Positions 6,551 to 9,307 of a stretch of 20,252 nucleotides of DNA are shown here, piece after piece (position 1 is the stretch's first letter; each line of letters begins with the position of its first letter). Made by a program: the position numbers and the translations under genes. Source of the stretch: a virus; the IMG/VR virus record IMGVR_UViG_3300032087_002112, positions 1-20,252 of that record, one strand, 5' to 3'. The notes beneath the pieces are model-generated. The model saw only the letters and a list, made by a program, of their open reading frames with translations, did no database searches and was not told where the DNA came from.

Positions 6551-6948
6551 TGGCTGGTCGACCAACAGACTACAATGACGAGATTTTAGTAAAAGCAATG
6601 GCCTATGTTGATGGTGAGTACATGGCAGAAGGTCAAGAAGTTCCAACTATTGAAGGCATGGCTTTATACCTTGGAAAGAGTCGCAGTACCATATATGACT
6701 GGGCCTCGCAACCTGAAAAGCAAGAATTCTCGGACATATTAGACAAATGTAATGCGCGCCAGACTGTTTTGCTGATGTCAGGCGCTCTACGCAATGACCT
6801 AAACGCGAATATAGCAAAGCTCATGCTAGGCAAGCAGGGCTACTCAGAGAAGAGCATACAGGAGCATGTGGGCGCTAATGGCGGTGCAATCAAAACCGAA
6901 TCAAAAGTCGAATGGACTATCCAGCCAGTAAAGCCAATCAATGAATAA
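6550..6948 (+). CDS. terS: Terminase small subunit
   Basis: A 132-aa protein whose start overlaps the previous stop (TAATG). It begins MAGRPTDYNDEIL, then has a helix-turn-helix at about residues 33-58 (TIEGMALYLGKSRSTIYDWA), followed by ARQTVLLMSGALRNDLN and ANIAKLMLGKQGYSEK. This is the typical order of P22/HK620-type small terminase (DNA-packaging) proteins, which recognise the pac site and hand DNA to the large subunit. The C terminus (about 105-132) is the variable tail. It is directly followed by the large subunit, whose start overlaps the end of this gene by eight bases. Confidence 0.9.
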   Translation: MAGRPTDYNDEILVKAMAYVDGEYMAEGQEVPTIEGMALYLGKSRSTIYDWASQPEKQEFSDILDKCNARQTVLLMSGALRNDLNANIAKLMLGKQGYSEKSIQEHVGANGGAIKTESKVEWTIQPVKPINE

Positions 6949-9307
6949 GACGCTTAAGGTTAATTACAAGATATGGGAAGGGATGCAGAAGCCCCAGCCC
7001 ATTATTGTTTTTATCGGTGGCCGTGGGTGCGTCAGTGCAGACACGCCGCTAGATACGCCTAATGGGCAGATTCGCATTGATGAATTTGATGGTGGTGAGA
7101 TATACGCCCTAACTAATAATGGTGTTAGGGCTGTTTATGCTGAGGCTCCGATAAGGTATCCAGAGGAAATGCTTTACGAGGTTAGGTTTTCTGATGGCGG
7201 CCTTTTGAAGTGTACTGACCAGCATCGTTTCTTGACTCCTCAAGGGTGGCGGTCTCTTTTAACCGTGCATTCCGAACGGCTTCAGATATGCGCCTCTTCC
7301 CGTCCTCACTCCAGTTCGGGCAGCGCCCCTTCAGCGTCTGACGAAGATGTTCAGCATTGCTTTCAAACACTCGTAGGTTTTCTATACAGTTATTACGCGT
7401 ATCTCCGTCGATATGATCAACAACCTCAGTCGGGAGTAGATACCTACCTAGATGCTGTTCAACAACTAGCCGGTGAACTGCAACATAAGAGCCATATTTT
7501 GAGCCATGAGGGTGCCCCGGAGTTCTGGAGTACTCGTAGCCCTTCACGACTTTCATCCCTCCTTTCCAGTTTGGCCTCTCTTCTCGAAGCGGAGGGGCAA
7601 AGTTCTGTAGGGCTGGGAAGTTGTAATATCGGAAAATCTTCTGAATTGATTTTGGAGTTACGTTTAATTGCTCGGCAATTTCATGAGAGTAATAGCCTTG
7701 AGCGGCTAACTCAGCAACTTTGCGAACTCGTTCAGGATTTCTACAGCGGCTGGATATTTTCAGCTCAAAGTCTCGAAACAATTCAGAGCACTCTTGAGCG
7801 CGACGTTGGCGATGGTTCATATAGTGACCTCCTTAGTTGTAATCACGACACCCATTATATCACTATTGAGTCATGCGTTAAAACCTCGCCCGCCAATTAC
7901 TATGATCTATTTGTTCCGTTCTATAACAACTACTTGAGCAATGGAATCATTAACCACAACTCAGGTAAGTCTTTGGGTGTTGGTGACGTGCTTACGTTCG
8001 AGATGGAAGCCAAAGGGTACGACATATATTGCCTCCGTGAATTCCAAGATTCACTATCTGACTCAGTGCACAAGGTATTTAAGGGGGCCATTGAGGATAG
8101 ATTACAATTAGATAACTGGACTGTACTAGAGAGCACTGTTATATCTCCAAACGGTTCAAAGACTACATACAAGGGTGCTAATCGCAATCCAGATGCAATG
8201 CAATCCGCACAGGGCTATTTGCGCTCATGGTTTGAAGAGGCGCACAGGGCTAGCCAAGCATCCTTAGACAAACTAATTCCCACGATAATCCGTAATCCTG
8301 GCGCTAAATGCATATTTACTGCAAACCCTCAATCGTCTGGTGACGCATTCAGCCAGCGATTTATCGTTCCATACTTGGAAGACCTAGAAAGAAACGGATA
8401 CTATGAGGATGATCTTCATTACATCTGCATCGTAAACTGGCGTGATAATCCATGGTGGAATGAGGAGCAAGAGCAATTGCGCAAATGGGACTTTGAGAAC
8501 CAGTCTAGGGCTAAGTACGACTGGATATGGGAGGGCAAGTTCTTGGATACTGTAGACGATGCCATTATTACAGCAGAATGGTTTGACGCTTGCGTGGATG
8601 CCCATGAGAAGCTTGGCTTTAAGAAGCGAGGAAAGAAGGTTGCAGCGCATGATCCTTCTGATACTGGTGACGATGCCAAAGGCTATTCATTCCGTCATGG
8701 CGTAGTGTTTGAGGATGTCTGCACAAAAGAAACAGGCGATGTTAATACTGGGTTAGACTGGGCCACTGATAAAGCCATTGCCCAAGGCGCACAATCATTC
8801 ACATGGGACTGTGACGGCCTTGGTGCTGCCTTGCGTAAGGATGTAGCTGCTAACTTTAAGGGTCAGAAGATCGACCAAGTTATATTTAAAGGGTCGCATG
8901 GTGTAGATAATCCAGATCAAACATACGAGCCTACAGCAGACGAGGCTGCGCAGGCTGTTAAGAATTGCGAGCTATTCAAGAATAAGCGTGCTCAATATTA
9001 CTGGGCGCTTAGAGATAGGTGCTACAAAACATATCGAGCTGTTGAGTTTAACGAGTATTGCGATCCTGATGAACTCATAAGTTTTAGCAGTGGCATTGAG
9101 CAATTACAGCAGCTTAGGTCTGAGATTTGCCGCATACCAAGGAAATGGAATGGTGCTGGCGTTATACAGATAATGAGCAAGATTGAGATGAAGAAGCTCA
9201 AGATACAATCCCCGAACATGGCTGACAGTGTGATGATGTCTTTGTCAATATCTGATAGAATCAAGCCAAAGAAACCACCTAAACCAAAGAGAATGTCGAT
9301 AGCATGA
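6941..9307 (+). CDS. terL: Terminase large subunit precursor, interrupted by an intein
   Basis: The 788-residue frame codes for an ATP-driven DNA-packaging motor and nuclease. Residues 1-29 end in GGRG and residue 341 resumes SGKSLGVGD, so removal of residues 30-340 restores a Walker A loop GGRGSGKS and leaves a 477-residue protein, close to the 499 aa of P22 gp2. Downstream are a Walker B-like RSWFEEAH (E432, E433), a helicase-type coupling segment (CIFTANPQ), and RNase H-fold nuclease acids: D571 in AAHDPSDTG, D623/D625 in WDCDG and D762 in NMADSVMMS. It overlaps terS by eight bases and the portal gene by four (ATGA). Without splicing the ATPase should be dead, because the intein splits the ATP-binding loop. 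Confidence 0.93.
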   Translation: MNKTLKVNYKIWEGMQKPQPIIVFIGGRGCVSADTPLDTPNGQIRIDEFDGGEIYALTNNGVRAVYAEAPIRYPEEMLYEVRFSDGGLLKCTDQHRFLTPQGWRSLLTVHSERLQICASSRPHSSSGSAPSASDEDVQHCFQTLVGFLYSYYAYLRRYDQQPQSGVDTYLDAVQQLAGELQHKSHILSHEGAPEFWSTRSPSRLSSLLSSLASLLEAEGQSSVGLGSCNIGKSSELILELRLIARQFHESNSLERLTQQLCELVQDFYSGWIFSAQSLETIQSTLERDVGDGSYSDLLSCNHDTHYITIESCVKTSPANYYDLFVPFYNNYLSNGIINHNSGKSLGVGDVLTFEMEAKGYDIYCLREFQDSLSDSVHKVFKGAIEDRLQLDNWTVLESTVISPNGSKTTYKGANRNPDAMQSAQGYLRSWFEEAHRASQASLDKLIPTIIRNPGAKCIFTANPQSSGDAFSQRFIVPYLEDLERNGYYEDDLHYICIVNWRDNPWWNEEQEQLRKWDFENQSRAKYDWIWEGKFLDTVDDAIITAEWFDACVDAHEKLGFKKRGKKVAAHDPSDTGDDAKGYSFRHGVVFEDVCTKETGDVNTGLDWATDKAIAQGAQSFTWDCDGLGAALRKDVAANFKGQKIDQVIFKGSHGVDNPDQTYEPTADEAAQAVKNCELFKNKRAQYYWALRDRCYKTYRAVEFNEYCDPDELISFSSGIEQLQQLRSEICRIPRKWNGAGVIQIMSKIEMKKLKIQSPNMADSVMMSLSISDRIKPKKPPKPKRMSIA
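7106..7131 (-). terminator. Perfect inverted repeat beyond the endonuclease stop, possible weak terminator
   Basis: GCCCTAAC (7106-7113) pairs exactly with GTTAGGGC (7124-7131) around a ten-base loop. On the minus strand it lies about 50 bases past the HNH stop codon and could end the antisense transcript, but no T-run follows (the next bases read gtatatctc). It sits inside sense codons of the N-terminal splicing domain. Confidence 0.3.
7182..7820 (-). CDS. HNH homing endonuclease encoded antisense within the intein
   Basis: A complete 212-codon gene on the minus strand. Residues 30-66 form a helix-turn-helix (VAELAAQGYYSHEIAEQLNV then SIQKIFRYY). Residues 94-163 form an HNH_3-type nuclease: YVAVHRLVVEQHLGR (112-126), VVDHIDGD (133-140, with D135 in place of the usual first His, a common variant), NN at 143-144, ENL at 147-149 and H158. 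The C-terminal tail is basic. AAGGAGGT lies six bases before its ATG, and an extended -10 with perfect TATAAT lies further upstream. It should cut intein-free terL near the P-loop codons to drive homing; that target is inference. Its codons never create a stop in the opposite, sense intein frame. Confidence 0.92.
   Translation of the reverse strand: MNHRQRRAQECSELFRDFELKISSRCRNPERVRKVAELAAQGYYSHEIAEQLNVTPKSIQKIFRYYNFPALQNFAPPLREERPNWKGGMKVVKGYEYSRTPGHPHGSKYGSYVAVHRLVVEQHLGRYLLPTEVVDHIDGDTRNNCIENLRVFESNAEHLRQTLKGRCPNWSEDGKRRISEAVRNARLKETATLEESRNDAGQYTSKGRHQKT
7827..7834 (-). promoter_or_regulatory. Ideal Shine-Dalgarno for the antisense endonuclease
   Basis: Read on the minus strand, AAGGAGGT is followed by six bases and then ATG (7820-7818). 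The same bases on the plus strand are sense intein codons for Asp-Leu-Leu. It decides the endonuclease start. Confidence 0.85.
7854..7881 (-). promoter_or_regulatory. Antisense promoter inside the intein C-terminal domain
   Basis: On the minus strand, TTAACG (7881-7876) is followed after 16 bases by TATAAT (7859-7854), directly preceded by TGA (an extended -10, TGn). The -10 is perfect and the -35 matches four of six. A start near 7847 would give a leader of about 27 bases carrying the Shine-Dalgarno. The same bases code for sense intein residues about 276-285. Confidence 0.6.

Follow-up and report, generated by a model that had tools for sequence, protein, structure and literature searches.

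Inteins are textbook elements, and their nuclease is normally part of the sense protein. In "fractured gene" split inteins, a free HNH gene lies between the two halves. In Lactobacillus phage CL2 (L123:473-2774), the terminase large subunit (TerL) is apparently split by a same-strand HNH gene positioned between intein N- and C-terminal halves; the phage record annotates a truncated TerL only. The dCTP deaminase intein of cyanophage CL131 carries an in-frame HNH, and a purified protein of the spliced size has been reported (PMC6293099). Lastly, the ShiLan domain is a mobile HNH hidden in an alternative frame, within an insertion in phage DNA methylases; the insertion is thought to stay in the protein, and no ribosome site was detected for it (PMC11855218). 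Here, we describe an intein in the TerL gene (terL) of a virus whose record is 20,252 bases long (hereafter, "the window").

In none of CL131, CL2, and ShiLan is an antisense nuclease contained within an uninterrupted intein precursor. Like the CL131 intein, the element in the window combines a Hint splicing domain with an HNH_3-type nuclease domain in a phage host gene. However, the CL131 HNH is in the sense polypeptide, whereas here the nuclease has a gene of its own on the opposite strand, and the sense linker is not itself a nuclease. As in CL2, the host is TerL and Hint halves flank an HNH gene, but the CL2 nuclease is on the same strand and the intein halves are in separate ORFs, whereas here a continuous sense ORF runs through the antisense HNH gene. 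As with ShiLan, a mobile HNH is hidden in an insertion whose host frame stays open; unlike here, ShiLan is encoded on the same strand and has no splicing domain, and antisense coding is unmentioned in PMC11855218. The nuclease also resembles I-HmuI-type HNH homing endonucleases, which share the HNH motif and provide the best match among solved structures. I-HmuI sits in a group I intron, whereas a search of both strands of positions 6800-8200 against Rfam gave no match at E ≤ 1; a group I or group II intron origin was rejected, as no catalytic intron RNA was found in that interval. Neither an antisense endonuclease inside an intein nor any published intein of this layout, the novelty of which the original prediction had put forward with reserve, was found in the full-text literature searched, one 2025 preprint by Gosselin, Arsenault, and Gogarten (bioRxiv 10.1101/2025.01.02.630785) lying outside that search. 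That preprint reportedly deals with actinobacteriophage inteins of "non-canonical architecture", its title suggesting an unusual placement of the endonuclease. With this reserve, the layout appears to be new, and it is a very clean case of overlapping genes.

We interpret the locus, with a probability of roughly 0.92, as a mobile intein with a split coding plan: terL and the intein on the + strand, and the homing nuclease on the − strand. On the + strand, TerL would be interrupted at its Walker A motif by a Hint-fold mini-intein, the halves of which are joined via a long filler, this filler being the antisense image of a separate HTH+HNH gene. After translation, the intein would excise itself using Cys1, His66, His310, Asn311, and Ser+1, so that GGRGSGKS is re-formed and the terminase is active. 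Expression of the nuclease would depend on a sigma70-like promoter and a ribosome site of its own on the − strand, and the enzyme would cut intein-less P-loop alleles at the insertion point. Repair after cutting would copy the whole intein, antisense gene included. Since a closed sense frame loses TerL, the nuclease would be barred from codon pairs that write sense stops. Moreover, because the nuclease gene is antisense and separately controlled by signals of its own, nuclease production would be uncoupled from TerL translation and splicing.

The terL precursor is one 788-codon ORF (6941..9307, + strand) comprising N-extein, intein, and C-extein; on this strand it matches Pfam Terminase_3 (5.7e-21) and scores above the cut-off of TIGR01547 (phage_term_2). 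The N-extein (6941..7027, +) ends with the GGRG of Walker A, which reads GGRGSGKS in empty relatives. The intein (7028-7960, +) has 311 codons, from Cys1 to a terminal His-Asn followed by Ser+1. It consists of an N-terminal splicing domain (residues 1-90; 7028..7297, +) with block A Cys1 and block B His66; a sense linker (residues 91-274; 7298..7849, +), which is the antisense image of the nuclease; and a C-terminal splicing domain (residues 275-311; 7850..7960, +), which ends in His310-Asn311 and scores above the cut-off of TIGR01443. The C-extein (7961..9304, +) begins Ser+1-Gly-Lys-Ser. The intein is located after Gly29 of TerL, inside Walker A (GGRG|SGKS), and its removal would rejoin GGRG and SGKS into the complete motif. 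A separate observation concerns PHROG 17415 (named terminase large subunit, 940 positions), which matches the window across the intein C-terminus; because of this, the profile may have been built on intein-containing TerLs.

Several properties place the element in the Hint superfamily: the catalytic residues, the fold, and an in-frame insertion at a conserved host site that is also found empty. Searched alone, the intein matches Pfam Intein_splicing at 39.2 bits, over its cut-off; of the NCBIfam models, intein_Cterm is over its cut-off and intein_Nterm slightly under its own. Cys1, block B His66, Tyr302, Gly306, His310, and Asn311 are invariant in 41 inteins. In the AlphaFold2 model, residues 1-90 and 275-311 have pLDDT values of 87-97 (89-97 for the N-terminal splicing domain), while the linker is mostly at 35-65, and the top PDB matches in Foldseek are the DnaB, DnaE, and RecA mini-inteins (best E 5e-7). 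The predicted structure is thus a mini-intein (Hint) fold with a low-confidence linker. A split intein would consist of two separate precursor ORFs, whereas there is a single continuous ORF here and in the relatives, the sole interrupted precursor being that of L011 (= L137). In canonical large inteins, the endonuclease is part of the sense polypeptide, whereas it is antisense in all members of this family.

The HTH+HNH homing endonuclease gene (7182..7820, − strand) has an ATG start, encodes 212 amino acids, and lies wholly within the intein. The original prediction had placed an intein at 7028-7960 (+), in frame with terL, opposite an HNH gene at 7820-7182 (−), and these coordinates are exact. 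The protein matches Pfam HNH_3 (PF13392; 46.5 bits, 2.9e-12) and PHROG 10730 (9e-27); the HTH match is weak. The HNH catalytic residues, H136, N144, and H158, are invariant in 26 sequences, so that catalytic residues are invariant on both strands, in agreement with the prediction that both strands are coding. The AlphaFold2 model of the nuclease has a mean pLDDT of 89. Its closest PDB match is the homing endonuclease I-HmuI (1u3e), although this match is weak when the whole model is compared by Foldseek (E 0.14, prob 0.93).

Candidate expression signals precede the nuclease gene on the − strand. In the window, a Shine-Dalgarno sequence, AAGGAGG (7828..7834, −), is positioned 7 nt before the start codon (ATG 7820-7818). 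About 20 nt further upstream is the TATAAT −10 box of a putative promoter (7854..7859, −), in a perfect extended form, TGATATAAT, with a weak −35 box, TTAACG (7876..7881, −), at a spacing of 16. Of 61 distinct upstream stretches, 16 contain exact TATAAT (2.0 in shuffles), 14 contain TTGAC (3.4 in shuffles), and 23 contain a Shine-Dalgarno sequence of at least five letters (1.4 in shuffles), the last enrichment being somewhat optimistic because start codons were chosen partly by Shine-Dalgarno quality. The sense strand of the same 61 stretches has TATAAT once and TTGAC twice. One member, L037, has a perfect TTGACA-17-TATAAT, although most members show no convincing promoter. Antisense sigma70-like promoters and Shine-Dalgarno sites are thus enriched upstream of the HNH gene, which suggests that it is transcribed separately. 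These signals fall inside the code for the intein C-terminal splicing block.

Antisense overlapping genes are often doubted, since an open antisense frame can be a matter of luck. In this family, the pairing of the two strands is fixed: the first base of each sense codon faces the first base of an HNH codon, the second faces the HNH wobble base, and the third faces the second HNH base. Because of this pairing, a sense stop can arise only where an HNH codon ending in TT, CT, or TC precedes an A. The original prediction stated this rule, and it is obeyed in the window and in all relatives but one. Over the HNH gene of the window, the sense frame has no stops, whereas stops number 12 and 16 in the other + frames, and 12 and 17 in the other − frames. 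As a null model, HNH codons were shuffled synonymously, preserving the protein and the codon counts (n = 1000). The shuffled genes had a mean of 7.5 sense stops, roughly the ten or so that had been predicted, and none of the 1000 had zero.

The same analysis of 68 distinct lineages gave no sense stops against 408 expected, with a minimum of 364 over 1000 shuffle sets. HNH codons ending in TT, CT, or TC were followed by A in none of 2263 cases, compared to 31% for other codons. The ban extends to the protein sequence: both Phe codons fall in the class forbidden before A, and Phe followed by Ile, Met, Thr, Asn, or Lys is absent (0/316, with 74 expected). Directly after Phe, Ser and Arg are never encoded by AGN codons. 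Ile before A is encoded by ATA in 51 of 51 cases, as opposed to 115 of 530 elsewhere. Avoidance is absent from free-standing HNH relatives, with 17 stops observed against 15.6 expected in L121, 9 against 10.9 in L122, and 9 and 2 stops in L127 and L129, respectively.

These data bear on the simplest alternative, i.e., that a spurious antisense ORF arose by chance or codon bias opposite a real HNH gene, with the halves of terL being broken. Long antisense ORFs are common in GC-rich genes, and the PGAP pipeline calls the E. coli TerL a pseudogene lacking its N-terminus. However, the G+C content is 41-60%, and 2.6-11 stops are expected per gene; in addition, the splicing residues do not vary, and the empty site is exact. 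The shuffles, both of the window and of the 68 lineages, refute this alternative, and we regard its probability as negligible. The family therefore separates luck from selection, with the expected stops missing, the Phe pairs erased, and the controls without effect. The comparative pattern indicates that the sense frame is kept open by selection, with one lineage excepted. In that lineage (L011:3001-3594, = L137), the only one with a broken sense frame, the linker has a single TAA stop where the related L008 has CAA, and the HNH gene is intact; the stop could be a sequencing error, decay, or an early step toward a split intein. No relative was found in which the HNH gene is broken while the intein is kept. 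Hence, of the two kinds of broken relative that would have counted against the original prediction, the first is limited to this lineage and the second was not encountered. If our interpretation is correct, few antisense overlapping genes known in phages are as well supported as these.

The strand that carries the information differs along the intein. In pairs that are 2-30% divergent, the HNH third base is the most frequently changed. Since the HNH third base doubles as the sense second base, silent positions can be assessed at four-fold codons that lineages have in common. Opposite sense residues 83-275, which the conserved nuclease body faces, third-base identity at these codons is 0.25-0.36, i.e., saturated, whereas over residues 1-83 and 275-311 it is 0.56-0.93, i.e., conserved. 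HNH residue identity is 36-78% over most of the overlap, and the HNH protein overlaps intein block B only with its variable C-terminal tail. Linker hydropathy is as predicted from the HNH protein and local codon usage. Given the saturated and conserved silent bases and the predictable hydropathy, the nuclease is the selected product within the overlap, and the splicing blocks are outside it.

The sense frame might instead be held open by a function of the linker itself, e.g., in the regulation of splicing. All lineages except one have an open frame, and some alpha-helix is predicted in the linker, as this explanation would have it, but the HNH residues are conserved and the sense second bases saturated, the hydropathy is what HNH coding alone gives, and the linker pLDDT is low; we consider a linker function highly improbable. 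The sequence comparisons indicate that the linker of the mobile intein is filler, and that staying open is its only detectable constraint.

The arrangement is widespread. When viral contigs were searched with the HNH protein, 46 loci were obtained, in all of which the same antisense phase is open (L011 with one stop), while the other two antisense frames have 0 to 18 stops; all complete loci are intein precursors. Profile scans added viral loci as well as bacterial ones, from a Methylomonas bin, Enterobacter cloacae DSM 26481, Acinetobacter, and one further bin. Altogether, the layout is found in the same codon phase in about 100 database loci, or 68 distinct lineages, which include the opposite-strand HNH genes in terL inteins that the original prediction proposed to look for. 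Cultured phages with the layout are Pseudoalteromonas phage PHS3, seven Pectobacterium phages, and Dickeya phage Setonix. In this family, no HNH gene lies on the same strand within an intein. A tblastn search of phages with the L030 intein found none, plasmids gave weak HNH matches only, and surveys of ~300 genomes from each of the families to which the Enterobacter and Acinetobacter hosts belong gave no further copies.

All 61 distinct inteins are inserted at one Walker A codon, before [S/T/C][G/A]K, the exceptions being a few mis-called ends; the +1 residue is S, T, or C. Besides terminases of several Pfam types, the host proteins include SNF2-type helicases (L029, L188) interrupted at the same P-loop point. 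The helicases bear on the proposal that the HNH protein is a packaging cofactor, of the kind encoded next to terminases in many phages, that is antisense to terL by chance. Most members are indeed inside terL, and HNH proteins are described as common packaging components in a reference cited in PMC12613952. Besides the helicase hosts, this proposal is contradicted by disagreement between the HNH and TerL trees, and by the absence of the gene from nearly all close relatives (it is present in about 1 of the 775 E. coli genomes with this TerL), which implies that the HNH is not needed for packaging. It is very unlikely to be correct.

Consistent with a mobile element, presence at the site is sporadic. 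In about 65 TerL relatives (44-82% identical), the GGRGSGKS-type site is empty and no intein signal is present. In E. coli, this TerL is found in about 775 of 5426 genomes, but the antisense-HNH intein is found in only one, strain MEI003. When MEI003 is aligned with two empty strains, the insertion is seen to be exact (...AGFG|SGKTW...), and its flanks share about 93-96% identity. The HNH and TerL trees conflict in supported clades, and L017 and L021 have 84% identical HNH proteins but TerL C-exteins only 35% identical. The intein has therefore spread horizontally, presumably by DNA cleavage and homing.

A variant of this scenario is that the HNH is a nested parasite, i.e., a once free-standing nuclease that entered a mini-intein and now targets mini-inteins lacking an HNH instead of vacant host genes, using the intein as a shelter. 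The nearest HNH relatives outside the family are free-standing genes, and the antisense-intein HNH family probably began from such genes. However, mini-inteins lacking an HNH were found neither among 71 TerL relatives nor in the two empty E. coli alleles, the sites in these alleles and in the roughly 65 empty relatives being plainly vacant. Furthermore, because the same Walker A codon is used in 61 inteins across different host proteins, the exon sequence looks like the target. We consider nested parasitism unlikely, though less so than the other alternatives. Homing of the whole intein thus remains the preferred interpretation, and its key elements, an intein with an antisense homing nuclease and a sense frame that stays open, recur across the family as originally predicted. 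On balance, this is likely to be an old, widespread, and undescribed class of inteins in which the homing endonuclease overprints the splicing precursor in antisense, in a fixed phase; an early-type promoter of its own would lie within the splicing-domain code, and the sense-stop ban would have shaped the nuclease sequence.

The layout explains a number of annotation errors. In MEI003, PGAP annotates terL as a pseudogene lacking its N-terminus and retains the HNH; in the PHS3 record, the HNH is accompanied by a truncated terL; and the HNH genes of Pectobacterium phages were missed, with the record of phage Abuela listing one long hypothetical protein and no HNH. The cultured phages and the E. 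coli prophage make the layout testable. The occupied terL of MEI003 (L203; NZ_CP071263.1, about 151-153 kb) also has an 87-base tandem duplication (VVVNSSNPPVKDRVNSMNAMFCNANGERR twice) that neither of the two empty strains used for comparison has, so the prophage is possibly defective.

Two further variations were observed within the family. First, a second nuclease subtype, represented by L036, L037, L039, L040, L042, L045, L119, and L120, has a conserved C-terminal extension (DVRLRQILLAxLxLGxDSPYLLGTxHH...) that is missing from the subtype in the window. Second, in the 1097-codon terminase precursor at L180:1093-4383, the antisense-HNH intein is followed by another Hint domain (Hint_2, residues 506-548), and this gene possibly contains two inteins.
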